The translations under genes and the position numbers were made by a program. A stretch of DNA of 64,000 bases from Nitrospirota bacterium (GTDB lineage: Bacteria; Nitrospirota; Leptospirillia; Leptospirillales; Leptospirillaceae), in contig DAHVAL010000003.1 in NCBI GenBank assembly GCA_027314645.1, positions 1 to 64,000 of the forward strand, given 5' to 3'. The notes beneath the pieces were generated by a model. The model was not told the origin of the DNA and ran no database searches. It was given only the letters and a program-made list of their open reading frames with translations. Below, piece after piece: positions 33,957-45,920 of the stretch (position 1 is its first letter; each line of letters opens with the position of its first letter).

Positions 33957-34829
33957 TTAGAGGGACGGCCTTTCTAATTTCTTCCAAAGGTCTCTGGAAA
34001 GCCGGCCCGTCATCACCTCTTCGACAGGGCCCTCCATTCGCAGTTCCCTGTCTTCTCCAACCTCAATCAAAAGGGATCCCCCCGGCATTCGAACTGTCAC
34101 GGGACTTTTCACCTTTCCAAGAGAGACCGCGCATGAGGCTGCGGCACAAGAACTGCTTCCGGACGCCTGAGTATAGCCAGCCCCCCGTTCCCAGATACGA
34201 ATTTCGATCTCCTGAGGACCGGTCACCTTGACCATCTGGGTATTGATCCTCTTTGGAAAGAGTGGATGATGCTCGATCTTGGTCCCATGTTCCCGGATAA
34301 AGTCTTCGTCGATCGCGTCCACAAAAAAGACAAAATGTGGATTCCCCACCGAAAGGGCCGACCCTTTAACCTTCACATCCCCCCCAAGGGAGAGGATCTC
34401 CTCAATCAAGGGAGCCTGCCGATTCTTGACCCCGACAAGGACGGGATCAAAGGTGTAGGCCCCCATCTCGACGAGAACGGAGGTTACCCGTCCTTCGGCG
34501 TCCGTCCGGACCCTCGTCTGCACCCGCCCTCCCATGGTATCGATGGGAAAATCCTTCGTTTTGGCGTACCCGTACTCATAAAGAAATTTCGAAAAAATTC
34601 TGAGGCCATTTCCGCTTTTTTCAGCCTCCGACCCATCGGGATTATAGATGCGCAATCCGAATGGAGGGGTGTCCCTTTCAAGCAAAAGGATGCCGTCGGA
34701 GCCGATTCCGTAATTCCTGTCGCAAAGGAGCCGAATATTATTCTCAGTGAGGAGGGGAGCCCCATCGGTTTTGACCATGACGATATAATCATTTCCCAAC
34801 CCGTGGCTTTTGACGAAATCCTGCTCCAT
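33957..34829 (-). CDS. DapF-family (diaminopimelate epimerase-like) protein without the two catalytic cysteines
   Basis: VKSHGLGNDYIV, DGSEAEKSGNGLRIFSKFL, GNPHFVFFV, WERGAGYTQASGSSSCAAA. Confidence 0.85.
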   Translation of the reverse strand: MEQDFVKSHGLGNDYIVMVKTDGAPLLTENNIRLLCDRNYGIGSDGILLLERDTPPFGLRIYNPDGSEAEKSGNGLRIFSKFLYEYGYAKTKDFPIDTMGGRVQTRVRTDAEGRVTSVLVEMGAYTFDPVLVGVKNRQAPLIEEILSLGGDVKVKGSALSVGNPHFVFFVDAIDEDFIREHGTKIEHHPLFPKRINTQMVKVTGPQEIEIRIWERGAGYTQASGSSSCAAASCAVSLGKVKSPVTVRMPGGSLLIEVGEDRELRMEGPVEEVMTGRLSRDLWKKLERPSL

Positions 34830-34842
34830 GAACCAATCCTTT

Positions 34843-35703
34843 TTATTTTAAAGTTGCCTGATCTCCGGACGATCCCCCTCCGGGGGTTTCCGAAAGTATC
34901 TGCCAATCTTTCCTGGCCTGACTGTCCTGGGGGTCGATTTGCATCGCTTTTTCAAGATTGACCTTTGCTTCAGGATACCGGTGACCCCGATACTCCGCCT
35001 CCGCCCGGCCAACGAGCTTCCTGACCATTCCGGAGACTCGATCGCGTATTCGGGCGGCGAGATCGTTCGTATTTTGGTAGAGCAATGCCTTGCGGGAATG
35101 GTCAAGCGCCAATCCGAAGCGGCCTGACACGTACTCGCTCTCTGCAAGCTTCCCATAGGCCCAGCCAATGGTGGGATCGATCGTCGTCCCGGAGGGATTC
35201 CTGGACTTGAGGGCCAGAAGTTTCTGGAGAAGTTCTCCCCAATCTTCTCCCTCCTGCCCAGAAACGATCATCTGGGCCTCTGTCCTTTCAATGTCCTTCC
35301 GGAGCGTAGGATCCTGAGGGGTGAAGGACCTGGCCCTCTTCAAGGCCTCCAGAGCCCCACGGAATCTCCCCGCCTTTCGACGTTCCTTCGCGATCCCCAT
35401 GTAATAGGCGGAGCCTATCATGCAGATGGTATTTTTATCCTTTCGGAGCAATTGTTTATTAGCATCCGACAGACCGGGATATTTTTCCCAGCCCGTGACC
35501 CACTCCAGAGCCTTTTGAAAGTGATTGTCCCGAAGGAGGGCCTTGAGTTCCGGATACTCTTTCCGGAACTGTTGATCGTCCGGCGATTCTTCATGAAAGG
35601 AGGAGAAGGAATGCATGAAGGAGTCGGTAGAACACCCGGAAAAACACAAAAGCACTACCCCTGAGGTGACCACGAGGAATCCATTTTTAAGGGTCCGACT
35701 CAT
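34843..35703 (-). CDS. TPR-containing lipoprotein
   Basis: Lipobox-like LLCFSGCSTDS; TPR pattern AKVNLEKAMQIDPQDSQARKDWQIL. Confidence 0.7.
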   Translation of the reverse strand: MSRTLKNGFLVVTSGVVLLCFSGCSTDSFMHSFSSFHEESPDDQQFRKEYPELKALLRDNHFQKALEWVTGWEKYPGLSDANKQLLRKDKNTICMIGSAYYMGIAKERRKAGRFRGALEALKRARSFTPQDPTLRKDIERTEAQMIVSGQEGEDWGELLQKLLALKSRNPSGTTIDPTIGWAYGKLAESEYVSGRFGLALDHSRKALLYQNTNDLAARIRDRVSGMVRKLVGRAEAEYRGHRYPEAKVNLEKAMQIDPQDSQARKDWQILSETPGGGSSGDQATLK

Positions 35704-37852: not shown

Positions 37853-38157
37853 AGGATCCTTTCGCCTTAGACGAACTGCCCAGTCTGGGATCTGTTGGGC
37901 ATGGGGCGCTCTCAGGTTCCATGACCTTTCCCATTTCGGTTCATCGGTAAGATGCAGTCCTTTTTGATTTTAGCAAACTAGACTCGGGTTTGCACCACCA
38001 CACCTCCCGGGGAATGGTTGAGGAAGGGCCATGCCCCCTGAACATCTCGCCCATCCTTGGTCTTAAAGAATGTGTCAGTCACTATTTAGGCCAGTCCAAT
38101 CTTGTCTTCCCTCTCTTTTTCTGTTAAATTTATTCCTATCTCATATCGTTAATGCGT

Positions 38158-38247
38158 GGAGAGATGGCCGAGAGGCTGAAGGCGGTTGACTCGAAATCAA
38201 CTCTGGGGGGAACTCCAGCGGGGGTTCAAATCCCTCTCTCTCCGCCA
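38158..38247 (+). tRNA. tRNA-Ser (anticodon CGA), CCA encoded
   Basis: GGAGAGA acceptor pairing with TCTCTCC; anticodon loop TTGACTCGAAATCAA; long variable arm; GGTTCAAATCC T-loop. Confidence 0.95.
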
Positions 38248-38292
38248 TGGTTCACCAGGGTCACCCCTGGCGATCTGCCTGCGGAGTCGACA

Positions 38293-39660
38293 TTGTCCAA
38301 CAAAGAGGACGCCCTCTACCGGCTTCTTTCAAACCACATCGCTGATTCGACCAATTCAGCCTTCCTTTTGATCGGGACCGACTACCGGATCCAGTGGGTT
38401 TCCGAAACCGCTCGCAAGCTTCTGTTCAAGGATTCACCGGACATGACTGGCGGGACCTGCGCCCACGCCCTGCAGGGTCGCGTTTGCACGGCTCAATGTC
38501 TCGAAGCTCGCGAGAACTTTTCGGGAAACGGTCCCTTCGGGCCCCCTTGCATGGAAAAGGAGTTTGGCGACTATTCCATCCGGAACAGCATCCTGGAGGA
38601 AAACGGCGATCCTGTGGGGTTGCTGAAACAGATCTTTCCATCGGAGGAGACCGATCCGGCAACCGGGTTTCCCCGCTTCGAGTCCAGAGGCTCGTGGCAT
38701 GCGACCCTCGCTCCGACCCTCTCGAGGATCGCGGAAACGACCATCCCCATTCTCTTGGTCGGGGAAACGGGAACGGGAAAAGAGGTTCTTGCACAGCGCA
38801 TCCATGAGTTGAGTCCCCGAAAAAACAACCCCTTTGTCGTCCTCGACCTCTCCGTCGTTCCTGAAACCCTCATCGACGACGCGCTTTTCGGACATGCCCG
38901 AGGAGCGTTCACGGGAGCGACTTCCGACTACACGGGGAAACTTCTGGAAGCAGATGGGGGGACCCTTCTATTGGATGAACTTGAAAACATTCCCCTCTCC
39001 ATCCAGGCCAAGCTCCTTCGATTTCTGGAAACCGGGGTCGTCGAACGGATCGGGCAGACCAAAAAGCATTCGATCGATGTGCGGGTCATCGCCGCCACCA
39101 ACATAAGCCCTGATAAGCTCCTTGCCTCGGGACGGCTCAGAGAAGATCTGTTCTACCGTTTGCGGGGAATGACCATCACCCTCCCCCCCCTCAGGGACCG
39201 GCGGGAAGAGATTCCGCTTCTGATCCAGACATTCCGGGGAAACTGGTCTGCACGGCATGGACGGAAGGCCCCCGCCTTTTCGAACAACCTCATCAATGCC
39301 TTCTGCCAATACCATTATCCCGGGAACATTCGCGAGCTCAGGCATCTTGTGGACCTTTGCCTGAGCCTTTCCACCGACCCGGTCGTGACAGAAAGCACCA
39401 TGCCGGATCCGGTACGGGAGATTTTGACCTCCCAAGGGGGGCGTCATCAACTGGCGAGTCTCCCTCTTCAATTTTCTCAACCACCCGGGAATGTGGACGA
39501 AGCCGTAGCTGCCGTTGAGAAAGACATGATTCAAAGAGTGCTTGCGCAGCACCGAGGGCGTGTTTCAGAGGCTGCGCGAACCCTTTCCATGAGCCGGATT
39601 ACGCTATGGAGAAAAATGAAGAAATATGATCTTGATCGGCGAAAATCGTTTCCTTCCTGA
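38293..39660 (+). CDS. Sigma-54 dependent transcriptional activator with PAS-like, cysteine-containing N-terminal sensor
   Basis: GETGTGKEVLAQRIHE, GHARGAFTGATSDYTG, Fis HTH VSEAARTLSMSRITLWRKMKKY. The listed ORF start (38152) runs through a tRNA; the TTG at 38293 is the first plausible in-frame start after it. Confidence 0.88.
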   Translation: MSNKEDALYRLLSNHIADSTNSAFLLIGTDYRIQWVSETARKLLFKDSPDMTGGTCAHALQGRVCTAQCLEARENFSGNGPFGPPCMEKEFGDYSIRNSILEENGDPVGLLKQIFPSEETDPATGFPRFESRGSWHATLAPTLSRIAETTIPILLVGETGTGKEVLAQRIHELSPRKNNPFVVLDLSVVPETLIDDALFGHARGAFTGATSDYTGKLLEADGGTLLLDELENIPLSIQAKLLRFLETGVVERIGQTKKHSIDVRVIAATNISPDKLLASGRLREDLFYRLRGMTITLPPLRDRREEIPLLIQTFRGNWSARHGRKAPAFSNNLINAFCQYHYPGNIRELRHLVDLCLSLSTDPVVTESTMPDPVREILTSQGGRHQLASLPLQFSQPPGNVDEAVAAVEKDMIQRVLAQHRGRVSEAARTLSMSRITLWRKMKKYDLDRRKSFPS

Positions 39661-39689
39661 AACGTTGCTTCATTCTTTAAACATTTTCC

Positions 39690-39707
39690 TGTTTCCCTTC
39701 TGAAACA
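39690..39707. promoter_or_regulatory. Candidate upstream activating sequence (inverted repeat)
   Basis: TGTTTC-N6-GAAACA, about 80 bp upstream of the -24 element. Confidence 0.4.
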
Positions 39708-39787
39708 TTTCGCGACATCCCCTTTTCCAAAATAAGATAAGTCTTTTTGGTTTAAAAATATCTTAATTCTGGACGTCGTAAATTCTT

Positions 39788-39804
39788 TTGGCACGAATCT
39801 TGTT
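39788..39804 (+). promoter_or_regulatory. Sigma-54 promoter
   Basis: TTGGCACGAATCTTGTT: TGGCACG-N4-TTG with the -24 block identical to consensus; GG-N10-GT (one mismatch at -12). Confidence 0.7.
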
Positions 39805-39886
39805 AATTCAAGGACGAGGATCGCCGGCTTGATCCCGGCCCCTTTGGAATGAGAACTACGTCCGAACCTTACAAGAGGAGTCGAAA

Positions 39887-40000
39887 ATGAGTGGAACAAA
39901 AAATCTGGTTTTCGTGATTATGGCCGCTTTTCCGTTCATTCTTATGGCTGTCTTTGAAAAAATCGACCATACCCTGAAGGGTGGGCTCGGCGGATTCTAA
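39887..40000 (+). CDS. 37-aa membrane microprotein
   Basis: AGAGGAG RBS, ATG; MSGTKNLVFVIMAAFPFILMAVFEKIDHTLKGGLGGF; downstream of the sigma-54 promoter; below the ORF-track length cutoff. Confidence 0.6.
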   Translation: MSGTKNLVFVIMAAFPFILMAVFEKIDHTLKGGLGGF

Positions 40001-40011
40001 GTTTTTTCCTT

Positions 40012-40028
40012 CCTTCCCTTGGGGAAGG
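40012..40028 (+). terminator. Hairpin after the 37-aa ORF
   Basis: CCTTCCC-TTG-GGGAAGG; no following T-run. Confidence 0.3.
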
Positions 40029-40047
40029 AGAACAAAGGACTTCCACC

Positions 40048-40527
40048 CTACAAGGCGGATTCCTTCTGTTCTTCTTCCCTTTTTTTTTCGAAAAAATCGG
40101 TCAGAAGAATTCGGGATTCCTCCTCGAGGACTCCGTGGACAACCTCAATGCGATGATGCAGGCGAGGGTCATTTTGGAGATCGTAAAGCGAAGCGACGAC
40201 ACCCCGGCGCGGCTCCCGCACCGCATACACGAGGCGTGAGATTCTCCCTTCGAGCAAGGCGCCGAAACACATGAGACAGGGCTCTAAGGTCACATACAGG
40301 GTGGAATCGCCCATACGGTAGTTTCCGATCTTCGATGCGGCCTCCCTAATGGCCACCATCTCGGCATGTGCGGTCGGATCATACGTCCGGCGGCCACGGT
40401 TCCACCCACAGCCGATGATCGTTTTGTCCAAGACAAGGACCGCTCCGACTGGAACCTCTTTTTCGTCCATCGCCTTCCGGGCCATCGCAAGCGCCTGTGT
40501 CATGAAATATTCATCCTGATCCTTCAT
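40048..40527 (-). CDS. tadA: tRNA-specific adenosine deaminase
   Basis: HAEMVAIREAA and PCLMCFGALLEGRISRLVYAVREPRRG. Confidence 0.92.
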   Translation of the reverse strand: MKDQDEYFMTQALAMARKAMDEKEVPVGAVLVLDKTIIGCGWNRGRRTYDPTAHAEMVAIREAASKIGNYRMGDSTLYVTLEPCLMCFGALLEGRISRLVYAVREPRRGVVASLYDLQNDPRLHHRIEVVHGVLEEESRILLTDFFEKKREEEQKESAL

Positions 40528-41279
40528 CGTTCGGAAGCCCTTCGGAATACTCGGTCCACACGCGCCTGGTCGAGGGGGCGAAGAAGAATGGCGTCCACAT
40601 TGACATGGGGTGGGCGTGTGACCGCCCACAGCACCGATTCTGCCACATCCGCTCCGGTGAGGGGAGTCATCCCTTCGTACACTTTTTTCGCCCTTTCGAC
40701 ATCTCCGCCGAACCTCACGATCGAAAATTCCGTTTCGACCATCCCGGGATCGATTTCCGTGATCCGGACTGGCTGGCCGAGCCACTCCAGGCGGAGGGTT
40801 TCCGTGACGGCCCGCAACGCATGTTTGGCCGCACAATATCCGGCTCCCCCGGCGTAAGTTTCGAACCCCGCCACCGAGCCGATATTGACCAGATGTCCCA
40901 GGCCGCTTCCGGCAAGCTTCGGAAACAGGGCTCTGGACATCCTGGCCGTTCCCAGGACATTGCTCTGGTACATGTCAAGCCATCCCGACTCATCCATGTC
41001 CATGACATGATCCAACCCCACGGCTCCGCCGGCGTTGTTCACGAGAAGATGGACTTCAGAGGGAAGGGCTTCTGCACACCTCATCACAGACTCGGGACTG
41101 CGGACATCGAGGAGGATGGGCGTCATCCCCGTCTCGCGGGCCAGAGCCTCGAGACGGGCCTTCCGTCTGGCGCCCCCGTAGACATGGAATCCGTTTTGGG
41201 AGAGAAGGCGGACAATGGCCTCTCCGATCCCGGAAGACGCTCCAGTCACCACCGCCACTTTTCTTCGTTTTTCCTCCAT
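40524..41279 (-). CDS. Short-chain dehydrogenase (YdfG-like SDR)
   Basis: VTGASSGIGEAIVRLL; NNAGGAVGLD; YCAAKHALRAVTETLRLE. Confidence 0.9.
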   Translation of the reverse strand: MEEKRRKVAVVTGASSGIGEAIVRLLSQNGFHVYGGARRKARLEALARETGMTPILLDVRSPESVMRCAEALPSEVHLLVNNAGGAVGLDHVMDMDESGWLDMYQSNVLGTARMSRALFPKLAGSGLGHLVNIGSVAGFETYAGGAGYCAAKHALRAVTETLRLEWLGQPVRITEIDPGMVETEFSIVRFGGDVERAKKVYEGMTPLTGADVAESVLWAVTRPPHVNVDAILLRPLDQARVDRVFRRASER

Positions 41280-41348
41280 CGATCACTCCTGCCGGCATTT
41301 CGAGAAGAAGGTCTTGCCGTTTTGAACAACTCTTTTCATAATGGATCC

Positions 41349-42197
41349 ATGAAATGTTTACAGCGCCCCCTCCGGATCAATATGACGGGGGGGATCATCC
41401 CCCTGGGAATCCCTCTCATCTTTCTTATTCTCCTGCAGTGGACTCATTGCGTTCCACTCTTGGCCCGGCCTCTCGACGACCCTTCCTACCCCCCTCCTCT
41501 GCGACAAGGGGTCCAGGAAGCGGCCCGCCAGATCCTTACCGACCACCCCAAGAAGGCTCTCTTAATCCTCACCCCCCTCTTCAAGCAGTACCCCGATTAC
41601 ACCATTGTCTTCACTCTCGCCGGAATGGCTTACGGAAAAACCGGAATGAACGCCGATGCGATCACCATGGAGCGCCGGGCGCTGGTTCTCGATCCCAAGA
41701 ACCTCACCGCCCGCACCAGCCTGGGAATCGCCGAGGGAAACACGGGCCACTTTCATCGGGAGATCAGGGAAGAAGCCGCGGTCCTGCGTCGAGATCCGAA
41801 ACGGGAAGCCGCCTGGAGCGCGTTGGGTTGGGCCTATGGATCCTTGGGAAAATGGAAGGAGGCCAGAAACGCAGAAATAAAGGCCATCCGTCTTCGGTCG
41901 TCGGATCCCGAGGCCCGTATGATTCTTGGGCTCGCCCTGGCCCATGAAGGATTCCTTCAGGAGGCCCTCACCATGGAGGAGTCGGCGCAGAAACTGGATC
42001 CGGCGGATGAAGGAATCCAACGGTCCCTGACATTCATCAAGCACACGATGAATCCGATGCCGGTCGCGGAGCCAAAGAACCCGGGATTCAATCCGCTTCT
42101 GGCGCCTCAGCCTGGCCTTCCTTCCGATTCGGCGACCCCCGGAAACCCTCTTCAGTTGGCCCCTTCACAGCTTCGCGCCCCTGCAGTTGCCCACTGA
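41349..42197 (+). CDS. Secreted tetratricopeptide-repeat protein
   Basis: Signal-like N-terminus; TPR repeats (AAWSALGWAYGSLGKWKEARNAEIKAIRL). Confidence 0.8.
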   Translation: MKCLQRPLRINMTGGIIPLGIPLIFLILLQWTHCVPLLARPLDDPSYPPPLRQGVQEAARQILTDHPKKALLILTPLFKQYPDYTIVFTLAGMAYGKTGMNADAITMERRALVLDPKNLTARTSLGIAEGNTGHFHREIREEAAVLRRDPKREAAWSALGWAYGSLGKWKEARNAEIKAIRLRSSDPEARMILGLALAHEGFLQEALTMEESAQKLDPADEGIQRSLTFIKHTMNPMPVAEPKNPGFNPLLAPQPGLPSDSATPGNPLQLAPSQLRAPAVAH

Positions 42198-42243
42198 TAT
42201 CGTTTGTCTTTTTGACGGGATTGTCCTAAAATTCATGACAAAC

Positions 42244-42329
42244 GGAGGGGTGGCCGAGTGGCCGAAGGCGGCGGTCTTGAAAACCGTAGAGCGAAAGCTC
42301 CGTGGGTTCGAATCCTACCCCCTCCGCCA
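42244..42329 (+). tRNA. tRNA-Ser (anticodon TGA)
   Basis: GGAGGGG/CCCCTCC acceptor, GTCTTGAAAACC anticodon loop, variable arm, GGGTTCGAATCC, CCA. Confidence 0.95.
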
Positions 42330-42455
42330 TCCTCCCTTCCAAGGAGAGGGAGGAAGGCTTTCTCCGCCAGGGAAGGAATTGAATCCAATGCCCCAATTGC
42401 GGTATTCTTCCTCCTCATGTTCGACCCGCGTTGCATTCACCGATTGAAATCCCAT

Positions 42456-42548
42456 GGAGAGGTGGCCGAGTGGTCGAAGGCGTCCGCCTGCTAAGCGGAT
42501 GTAGGGTCAAAAGCCCTACCCAGGGTTCAAATCCCTGCCTCTCCGCCA
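42456..42548 (+). tRNA. tRNA-Ser (anticodon GCT)
   Basis: GGAGAGG/CCTCTCC acceptor, CCTGCTAAGCGG anticodon region, long variable arm, CCA. Confidence 0.95.
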
Positions 42549-42606
42549 TATGTCAACGAACCGCCTCACGCGACTGGTCCCGGAAAACCGGATTCCCCGA
42601 TCCCGG

Positions 42607-43650
42607 TCACTCCCGAAACACCGTGGTTCGATTGCGCCCTTCCTTCTTTGATACATAGAGGGCTTTGTCCGCTTTTTCCATCATCTGTTCCCATCGGGCA
42701 TCGAAGGGTCCCGAATCAATTCCGATCGAAATGGTCATCACCCCAATCTTCTGATGCTTCGTAACATTCATGATCTCGGCCTTCTCGACCGCCTTTCTGA
42801 TTTTTTCTGCGGTCTGGAATCCCTCGTCGGCGAAAAGGCCTGGCAGGAGCAAGGCAAATTCTTCCCCACCAACGCGGGCAGCCATATCCATTCTCCTCAC
42901 GTTCATCTTGAGGATCTTGGAGACAGCCATGATCGCCTTGTCTCCGACCATATGACCATGGGTATCATTGATCCCCTTGAAGTGGTCGATATCCAGCATC
43001 AGAATCGTCATTTCCTCGCCTGAATGCCTTCCTTGAACCAGAAGCTCATCGATCTTGGCCTTCAGCCCCCGACGATTTAAAAGCTCCGTCAAAGGATCAA
43101 TCAAGGCCTCTGCCCGGGTGGTCCGCAATTCCTTCTGCAGGACATCGATCTTTTTCTGGCTTTCTGTCAAGTCATTGCTGAGGGAGGCGGAGCTGTCCCG
43201 GAGAGATACGGTGTCCCGGAGGATCCTGTCCACGATCGCCTTGAGCTCCTGATCATCCAGGTGATTTTTCCGGAGTGTGGCTCCATACGACTCCATTCCC
43301 GTCTTGACCCGTTCGACCTCATGCTTGGTCAACTTTGTCGACCTGGAAAGCGATTCGAGAACATTCTGGATTTCCTTGGTCAGGGAATCACTGTGGTCGT
43401 TCAGGGGAAGGACATATTCCGGGGCGATGAAGCTCAGGAAAAGCTTTTCTATTTCGGAGTCCTTGAGAGGGTGCCCGGATTTCGTGAGATCATCGAGAGA
43501 TTCCGACAAACCGGGATTGACCCCCGAGACGTCCTCATAGATGACAGCGTAATGTATCGGAGTGAAGGAACACCCAAGATCCGTCATGCGCTGAAGGGCC
43601 AGTCGGAATATTTCGGCACTGGCCATCTTGCCTTCGGTATAGCGAAGCAT
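42607..43650 (-). CDS. Diguanylate cyclase (GGDEF domain)
   Basis: DPLTELLNRRGLKAKI; MLDIDHFKGINDTHGHMVGDKAI; RVGGEEFALLLPG. Confidence 0.95.
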   Translation of the reverse strand: MLRYTEGKMASAEIFRLALQRMTDLGCSFTPIHYAVIYEDVSGVNPGLSESLDDLTKSGHPLKDSEIEKLFLSFIAPEYVLPLNDHSDSLTKEIQNVLESLSRSTKLTKHEVERVKTGMESYGATLRKNHLDDQELKAIVDRILRDTVSLRDSSASLSNDLTESQKKIDVLQKELRTTRAEALIDPLTELLNRRGLKAKIDELLVQGRHSGEEMTILMLDIDHFKGINDTHGHMVGDKAIMAVSKILKMNVRRMDMAARVGGEEFALLLPGLFADEGFQTAEKIRKAVEKAEIMNVTKHQKIGVMTISIGIDSGPFDARWEQMMEKADKALYVSKKEGRNRTTVFRE

Positions 43651-43849
43651 GAAAGCTCCAATCCTCGTCTTTTAATAATGTCATAAAATTTGTTTGTAAA
43701 ATTTTTTTCAGGGCGCATTTTATCACAATTCAATCCTTATCCCACAAACCTAAGCTTCATAAGAAAGAGTGGATCTTCCAATCTCTGATCGGACATAATC
43801 GAGTTGGCCCGGGTCCTCCCGGTTTAATAATAATGAGGAGGTCGACATC

Positions 43850-44824
43850 GTGTCTTTCGGCGTAATTCCCCAACTGGTCAAACATTCCGAAGGGACACAC
43901 CGGTCCAATTGGGATGTCGTCCTCTTTCATCTCGGGAAAACACCGGTGACCCTTGCCGGGATGATCGACTTCCTGTTTTTCATCCTTCTTGGCTTGATCC
44001 TCCGACATTTCCTTGGCAAGGCCCTTCACGCGAAGGCCCAGAACCAGTCCTCCCCCCAGACACGCCATTTGATGGGCCTTCTGGCGACCCTGGCTTCCAA
44101 TCTCACTCTTGGACTGGCCTTCGTCATCGGTCTCGACAACCTCGGAGTCCGCCTCTCATTTCTTGGCGGAGCTCTGGGCGTGTTGGGGATCGGCATCGGA
44201 ATCGGGCTCCAAAATGTGGCGGCCAACATGATCGGCCTGGTCGTCATTCTTCTTGAAAAGTCCATTCAGATCGGGGACCTGATCGAAATCGAGGGCATTC
44301 TGGGAACGGTGGTCGAAATCAAAGCCCGCGCGACCACCGTCATGAGCCGGGACAATATCGCCATCATCATTCCCAACTCCCACTTGATCTCGAACAAGGT
44401 GATCAACTGGAGCCACCGGGACCCCAACACCCGCATGCACCTCAAGGTCGGAGTCGGAATGGATCCCGATCGGCTCGAACGAGCGGTGTCCATCCTTGAA
44501 AAAATTGGGATCGAACACCCGGACGTCCTGAAGGATCCCGCCCCCGTGGTCTGGTTCTCTGAGTTCGGAGACTCCTCCTTCAACCTCGAGCTGATTTATT
44601 GGATCGGAGACGTCACCATGCGGCACAACATCCTCTCCGACCTCAACTTTCGAATCGCCCGGGAATTCAGGAAGGAGGGAATTGAGCTGCCGTATCCCCA
44701 TAATGTCATCCTGTTTTCCGATGAAACGATGCGCCCCAAAATCGCCTCGCCCCTTGCAGAGCCGCCGAAGGGAGAGGATAATAGAACCCATGAAAATAGG
44801 AATTCTTCTCTCGACCCATCCTGA
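43850..44824 (+). CDS. Small-conductance mechanosensitive channel (MscS family), GTG start
   Basis: LGGALGVLGIGIGIGLQNVAANMIGLVVILLEKSIQIGDLIEIEGILGTVVEIKARATTV. Confidence 0.93.
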   Translation: MSFGVIPQLVKHSEGTHRSNWDVVLFHLGKTPVTLAGMIDFLFFILLGLILRHFLGKALHAKAQNQSSPQTRHLMGLLATLASNLTLGLAFVIGLDNLGVRLSFLGGALGVLGIGIGIGLQNVAANMIGLVVILLEKSIQIGDLIEIEGILGTVVEIKARATTVMSRDNIAIIIPNSHLISNKVINWSHRDPNTRMHLKVGVGMDPDRLERAVSILEKIGIEHPDVLKDPAPVVWFSEFGDSSFNLELIYWIGDVTMRHNILSDLNFRIAREFRKEGIELPYPHNVILFSDETMRPKIASPLAEPPKGEDNRTHENRNSSLDPS

Positions 44825-45092
44825 AAATCATGACGGGGAAAGGGTGCGTTCGATCGTAGAACCCGCCCTCGCCTCCGGCGACGAGATCTATCTCTACCTT
44901 CTCGACGAAGGAGCCCGCTTCTTAACTCAGGATTGGGTCCACTCCCTTGTCGACCGGGGCGCCACCGTTTATACCTGCGCCTACGCAGCCCAAAACCGCC
45001 GAATCTCGGATCCCGGAAAAACCACTTTCTGCGGATTGGTGGTTCTGACTCAGATCATCGAGGGGTGCGACCGTTTCCTTGCCTTCGCCTGA
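44790..45092 (+). CDS. DsrE/TusD-like protein
   Basis: MKIGILLSTHPENHDGERVRSIVEPALASGDEIYLYLLDEGARF...GATVYTCAYAAQNR; conserved-position Cys. Confidence 0.65.
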   Translation: MKIGILLSTHPENHDGERVRSIVEPALASGDEIYLYLLDEGARFLTQDWVHSLVDRGATVYTCAYAAQNRRISDPGKTTFCGLVVLTQIIEGCDRFLAFA

Positions 45093-45102
45093 AAGGAGTT
45101 CC

Positions 45103-45456
45103 GTGTCCTCCTCGAGCCACAAGACTCTTCTGCTGATCAAAGCGGACCCGTCGACCGACCCGAGACCTGCCGAAGCCGTGCGCTCGGCCCTCGGCCTGAT
45201 TGCCGGGGAAATCCCTGTCAGCGTCTATTTATTCAAGGAAGCCCACGCTCTCCTCACCTCCACCTCCGAGGATCTTCTCGACCTTGAGGACGGAGAGGTT
45301 CTTCACCGGTTCCTCGGAACATTTTTCGACATGGCCTCCGGAATCTACTATGAACCGTTCGACACCCCTCCTTCGGAGAAAACACGGGGAACCCCCCTCT
45401 CCCCCAAGGATCTGGGCCGAATGATCGGGAGCTTCGACCACACTCTTTTCTTTTAG
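45103..45456 (+). CDS. DsrF/TusC-like protein (GTG start, no Cys)
   Basis: AAAGGAG RBS; LLLIKADPSTDPRPAEAVRSALGLIAGEIPVSVYLFKEAHALL. Confidence 0.5.
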   Translation: MSSSSHKTLLLIKADPSTDPRPAEAVRSALGLIAGEIPVSVYLFKEAHALLTSTSEDLLDLEDGEVLHRFLGTFFDMASGIYYEPFDTPPSEKTRGTPLSPKDLGRMIGSFDHTLFF

Positions 45457-45464
45457 GACGCGCC

Positions 45465-45719
45465 ATGCTGATCCTTCTCCGCCATCCTCCCGACGACCGG
45501 GTCCGGGATCTGATCCTTGCGGCATGCGAGGAATCCGGGTCCGCCTCCCTCGTCTACCTTGAGCGGGCCCTTCATGACCCCTTGGGGCACCCTCCACTGG
45601 TCCTCGCAGGCCAGACCTACACCATGGACCCCCCCGCAATACCGGGCATCAAACAGATCGACGGACAGCTCCTGCTCACCCTGATTCGAGGCGACTCCCG
45701 AATTCTGGTCCTTCCCTGA
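45465..45719 (+). CDS. DsrH/TusB-like small protein
   Basis: Third gene of the DsrEF-like set; short protein with alpha/beta pattern LILLRHPPDDRVRDLI...ILVLP. Assignment mainly positional. Confidence 0.45.
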   Translation: MLILLRHPPDDRVRDLILAACEESGSASLVYLERALHDPLGHPPLVLAGQTYTMDPPAIPGIKQIDGQLLLTLIRGDSRILVLP

Positions 45720-45827
45720 TCGTCGGCGTTGACACCGGACAAGGCTCCGTCATCCCTCCCGGGAACCTCTTGTATTCGACCAGTCCAGAAGGTATGATTG
45801 GATGTTCCGCGCTTAAACACCTGACGT

Positions 45828-45920
45828 GGAGAGATGTCCGAGCGGCCGAAGGAGCACGACTGGAAATCGTGTAGGTGCCTAAGAAGTGCCTCGGGGGTTC
45901 GAATCCCCCTCTCTCCGCCA
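45828..45920 (+). tRNA. tRNA-Ser (anticodon GGA)
   Basis: GGAGAGA/TCTCTCC acceptor, GACTGGAAATCGT, long variable arm, CCA. Confidence 0.95.

Follow-up and report, generated by a model that had tools for sequence, protein, structure and literature searches.

Serine at both catalytic cysteine positions in a multiphylum clade of DapF homologues

The window analyzed here (64,000 nucleotides, positions 1 to 64,000 of contig DAHVAL010000003.1 from a Nitrospirota bacterium of the Leptospirillaceae) encodes a homologue of the diaminopimelate (DAP) epimerase DapF, with a TPR lipoprotein-like gene directly upstream (Table 1). The protein scores 227.9 bits against the DapF profile TIGR00652 (curated cut-off, 114.65) and 183.8 bits against PF01678. 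Because this equivalog model scores the protein well above its cut-off, automatic annotation hides the variant described here, in which the residues aligned with the two catalytic cysteines of DapF are both serines (Ser/Ser, as opposed to Cys/Cys, type).

Table 1. Features of the dapF region, in window coordinates
Feature	Coordinates	Strand	Remarks
Ser/Ser-type DapF homologue	33957..34829	(-)	290 aa; 290 codons + stop
Ser72 (AGC)	34614..34616	(-)	aligns with catalytic Cys73 (H. influenzae) / Cys75 (Anabaena)
Lys71, adjoining Ser72	34617..34619	(-)	invariant in the Ser/Ser clade only
Ser223 (TCC)	34161..34163	(-)	aligns with catalytic Cys217 (H. influenzae) / Cys224 (Anabaena)
Ile78	34596..34598	(-)	in place of a non-catalytic Cys (last residue of GNGARC)
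Asn63, predicted DAP-binding, kept	34641..34643	(-)	equals Anabaena Asn66; role from PMC12039745
Glu214-Arg215, predicted distal amine/carboxylate binding, kept	34185..34190	(-)	equals Anabaena Glu215/Arg216; PMC12039745
TPR lipoprotein-like gene, directly upstream of dapF	34843..35703	(-)	dapF-linked in the window's family

The catalytic sites were placed by aligning the window protein with DapF of Anabaena (9mro); catalysis there depends on Cys75 and Cys224 (PMC12039745), which fall on Ser72 and Ser223, respectively. The first-pass annotation had held that both catalytic cysteines are replaced, and this is borne out. Chance is a very poor account of it, as the same serine pair does not vary among 104 aligned homologues. 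It had chosen the wrong residue at the first site, where it described a change of Cys to Ile; the catalytic cysteine precedes GNG, and the real change is Cys to Ser72. Its change of Cys to Ser at the second site is correct: in the crystallized C217S mutant of the H. influenzae enzyme (2q9j) the stretch TQASGSGACAA lines up with TQASGSSSCAA in the window protein, serine on serine. A replacement of Glu by Tyr at position 219, to which it had also drawn attention, does not define the group, since that position varies among Y, W, F, E, and Q in its members. The DAP-binding set of Anabaena (N13, N66, N164, N197, E215, and R216) is retained in full (N13, N63, N163, N196, E214, and R215) and is invariant in the 104 Ser/Ser sequences.

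An AF2 model of the window protein (mean pLDDT, 96.4) has the two-domain DapF fold, and Foldseek ranks DapF structures first among its PDB matches (E values as low as 1.6e-34 and TM scores as high as 0.92), among them the H. influenzae C73S and C217S mutants; residues 73 and 224 stand at predicted helix starts, as in DapF. PhzF and trans-3-hydroxyproline dehydratase are far behind (TM about 0.6–0.7, 12–15% identity). In sequence model, fold, substrate-site residues, and pathway context the protein is a DapF; what it lacks is the two cysteines, and it is classed here with a Ser/Ser variant clade rather than with canonical DapF. Nor does it show the combination of two cysteines and a non-DAP site that marks histidine and O-ureidoserine racemases.

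Relatives were gathered by scanning genome contigs with patterns drawn from the first-motif region only; 80 loci were kept, and every one has Ser at site 2, though that site was not selected for. By deposited titles, mostly of MAGs, they belong to Nitrospirota, Dadabacteria, Bacteroidota, Rokuibacteriota, Methylomirabilota, Aquificota, Chloroflexota, Gemmatimonadota, Latescibacterota, Planctomycetota, Dictyoglomota, Bacillota, and FCPU426; the Ser/Ser clade spans about a dozen phyla. The motifs EKSGNGLRI and ASG recur in each of the 19 Ser/Ser loci (L006–L024) that represent family f1 and two further families of the phylum. An alignment of 163 sequences comprises 104 Ser/Ser, 56 Cys/Cys, and three Cys/Ser proteins, and a quick tree of 116 of them, with both catalytic columns kept in, places the Ser/Ser sequences in a single clade with an SH-aLRT value of 100 and a long stem (0.98). 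Two sequences nested inside this clade, L215 and L216, have Cys at site 72, which is most simply read as a return to Cys.

Twelve positions separate the clade from the Cys/Cys enzymes: Pro64, Lys71, Ser72, Leu76, Ile78, Gly100, Val103, Gln198, Ile212, Ser223, Ser226, and Val269. Ser72 and Ser223 are each invariant (104/104), and the first of these is Cys in all 56 Cys/Cys sequences; position 78 is Ile in 103 of the 104 and Cys in 55 of the 56. One Bacteroidota DapF outside the clade (L204) has Cys at site 1 and Ser at site 2 (ASGTGAC) and, judged by its sequence, is a separate single change of Cys to Ser; a pattern search of 396 genomes for further Cys/Ser intermediates in Bacteroidota gave three chance matches, none of them a DapF.

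The Ser/Ser gene is under purifying selection (dN/dS about 0.05). For pairs within the genus whose silent sites have diverged, the ratio is about 0.04–0.08, a rough figure with dS near saturation, and for the closest pair it is 0.12–0.15. A pseudogene was rejected on this ratio, the full-length reading frame, and the retention of the gene across many species. Errors of sequencing or assembly were likewise rejected, as the same serines occur in independent genomes and site 72 is encoded by Ser codons of both classes, AGY and TCN. Such switching of codon class could reflect a passage through Cys; Ser67, another conserved serine, also mixes codon classes.

Copy number and pathway context were surveyed in 34 genomes with a Ser/Ser gene, including complete or single-contig ones (G015 and the Nitrospira moscoviensis chromosome). 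Only Ser/Ser copies of DapF are present in 29 of them, the single-contig G015 and N. moscoviensis included; the other five have an additional Cys/Cys copy. The DNPR motif in MurE denotes use of DAP, and LysA decarboxylates meso-DAP. All 34 genomes have a LysA match (27 above cut-off) and a MurE match, with the DAP-type DNPR motif in each of the 30 MurE proteins inspected. A bypass through DAP dehydrogenase was rejected, as nothing scored above the curated cut-off for that enzyme in the 34 genomes. Three Nitrospira-type genomes (G029, G062, and G082; loci L145, L146, and L147) encode a DAP-dehydrogenase-like protein well below that cut-off (E 1e-32 to 1e-37).

The assembly that contains the window (2.04 Mb, 69 contigs) carries argG-argH-lysA-dapA-dapB-FAH hydrolase-dapL as one operon on contig C11, and its DapL is above the TIGR03540 cut-off; the genome therefore makes LL-DAP and decarboxylates meso-DAP. 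The Ser/Ser protein is its only DapF-family candidate for the intervening conversion of LL-DAP to meso-DAP, a step that lies between DapL/DapE and LysA/MurE and has no known alternative here. The search that the first-pass annotation had proposed, for a canonical DapF or another DAP route, turned up no Cys/Cys DapF and no DAP dehydrogenase above cut-off, so that the gene stands as the organism's only type of DapF, a circumstance which that annotation had itself set against its reading; with the DAP pathway present and DAP dehydrogenase absent, its warning that a dapF label could be wrong is unsupported. A second canonical DapF was rejected, as the only other copy in the assembly, on the 10-kb contig C30 (L246), is also Ser/Ser and has the same neighbors as in the window. 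Over 3.3 kb the C30 DNA is about 90% identical to sibling-species genomes (G005 and G013) and only 68% identical to the window copy; this contig is probably co-binned from a sibling species, to judge by these identities, and not a paralogue. The FAH hydrolase gene between dapB and dapL (L245:9308-10132) belongs to the fumarylacetoacetate hydrolase family (PF01557).

In the window's family, members that carry dapF have a homologue of the TPR gene alongside it, and MAGs without dapF are also without the TPR gene. This joint absence makes the gaps look like faults of assembly or binning, and a true loss of dapF in half of the genus was rejected. In Bacteroidota, where neighborhoods were read by eye, the Ser/Ser gene adjoins lysA and/or dapL at 14 of 20 loci, and in the same order a Cys/Cys dapF is followed directly by dapL at most of the loci L190–L209; the Ser/Ser form thus holds the functional position of ordinary DapF in that phylum. 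The nested lineage in which Cys is back at site 72 also has a dapL-linked locus (L215), which suggests that the two residues serve the same function in that lineage. In the order to which G065 (Bacteroidota) belongs, ten of 119 genomes gave no TIGR00652 match (G085, G097, G114, G125, G136, G142, G162, G181, G192, and G195).

The strongest reason for caution over an epimerase role comes from the two-copy genomes: in G026 and G035 the Cys/Cys copy adjoins lysA and the Ser/Ser copy lies elsewhere, so the latter need not be the epimerase everywhere. These genomes, like the clostridial Ser/Ser genes, which are without lysine-gene neighbors, would suit a racemase neofunctionalized for another amino acid, at least where a Cys/Cys DapF is also encoded; we regard this as very improbable, as every member keeps the residues of the distal site that are specific for DAP, and the sole-copy genomes would go unexplained.

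We consider it likely that the window protein is the organism's own LL-DAP/meso-DAP epimerase, with Ser72 and Ser223 as its acid-base pair. Because it is the sole copy in many bacteria and is placed among lysine genes, Ser/Ser DapF has probably changed its chemistry without ceasing to be a functional enzyme. The first-pass annotation had proposed altered chemistry or a non-epimerase; the former is consistent with the clade-wide exchange of the thiol pair for hydroxyls, and the latter, including a pseudoenzyme, found no support. From conservation and genomic context we infer that the protein epimerizes DAP, with the following parts for Ser72, Ser223, and Lys71. DAP would be bound as in DapF, by Asn13, Asn63, Asn163, Asn196, Glu214, and Arg215, and two serine hydroxyls would stand in for the thiol/thiolate pair, each at the N-terminus of the same helix as its cysteine counterpart. 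The alpha proton would be taken by one of them, probably by Ser72 with activation from neighboring Lys71, and Ser223 or a bound water would return it on the opposite face.

Activation of Ser72 by Lys71 is plausible because this lysine is specific to the clade (104/104 Ser/Ser sequences and 0/56 Cys/Cys, which have M, L, or F) and is gone where Cys72 returns, position 71 being Asn in both nested sequences, although these represent one lineage only. The same pattern could mean that the protein is an epimerase whose bases are not the serines but Lys71 and/or Cys36, which is invariant in the Ser/Ser sequences. We think this improbable: Cys36 is not clade-specific, since 29 of the 56 Cys/Cys enzymes also have it; the loop position equivalent to Lys71 (Met74 in Anabaena) makes no direct hydrogen bond to the ligand (PMC12039745); and the change between Lys and Asn is seen in one lineage only.

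In accepted mechanistic thinking, thiol-free proton transfer of the kind proposed for Ser72 and Ser223 is very unfavorable, and the pKa of Ser lies much above that of Cys. Cys is favored over Ser or Thr as a base, and where a single Cys has naturally become Thr, the outcome can be a unidirectional racemase or, as in the related trans-3-hydroxyproline enzyme, the conversion of an epimerase to a dehydratase (PMC8142540); engineered replacement of single Cys by Ser greatly impairs the histidine racemase HisR (PMC11602996). The chemistry argues against an easy swap of Cys for Ser, and it is this conflict that gives the finding its interest. Together with the loss of both thiols, the dehydratase and the weak engineered variants would also fit a DAP-binding protein without epimerase activity, either a pseudoenzyme or a catalyst of another reaction such as dehydration or exchange, with meso-DAP supplied by an unrecognized, non-homologous epimerase. 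That explanation is unlikely, as some epimerase would have to lie hidden across about a dozen phyla without Cys/Cys DapF, and it sits poorly with the presence of the gene in lysA/dapL clusters and with the conservation of the entire DAP site, distal-center recognition included.

If the epimerase reading is right, a natural two-serine DapF kept as the sole copy in many bacteria would test the need for thiols in this chemistry. We judge as evenly balanced the proposition that the clade as a whole, with a natural, Lys-assisted Ser/Ser pair and no thiols, carries out cofactor-independent 1,1-proton transfer at the unactivated alpha carbon of an amino acid, and that Nitrospira- and Leptospirillum-type bacteria rely on it as their essential DAP epimerase, in a form insensitive to thiol reagents and oxidation. 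DapF, the standard example of a two-thiol epimerase, is an antibiotic target, and its best-known inhibitors, aziridino-DAP, alkylate the catalytic cysteines. The C. glutamicum enzyme is inactivated oxidatively through a disulfide between both catalytic cysteines (PMC5296763). A Ser/Ser enzyme would be predicted to be naturally insensitive to thiol-reactive inhibitors and to oxidative inactivation of this kind.

The clade shares with the DapF enzymes of H. influenzae, E. coli, Anabaena, and P. aeruginosa the fold, length, DAP-binding residues, and catalytic positions at helix N-termini, and with DapF in Bacteroidota the gene neighborhood; it differs in having Ser for both catalytic Cys, Lys71 before site 1, and Ile78 and Ser226 for a conserved Cys and Gly. 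The H. influenzae variants C73S (2q9h) and C217S (2q9j), which match it in sequence and fold and have Ser at one catalytic position, are single mutants made in the laboratory for crystallography, whereas the clade is naturally double Ser with further changes of its own. Among enzymes of the cofactor-independent type, the aspartate/glutamate racemases EcL-DER and MMP0739 and the human trans-3-hydroxyproline enzyme have a hydroxyl residue for one catalytic Cys and are unidirectional or dehydratases (PMC8142540); in the window's clade both are replaced. The histidine racemases HisR and CntK and O-ureidoserine racemase have a DapF-like fold with two catalytic Cys and other substrates, whereas the clade keeps the DAP site without thiols. 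A search of open-access literature brought up no account of a Ser/Ser DapF, and this large branch is apparently undescribed so far.

Four tRNA genes were identified by ARAGORN in the whole window, all of them tRNA-Ser (CGA, TGA, GCT, and GGA) and all within 8 kb (38158-45920). The listed start of a sigma-54 activator ORF (38152) overlaps one of these genes (38158-38247; region 38152-38247), and the true start of the activator is therefore probably further downstream.
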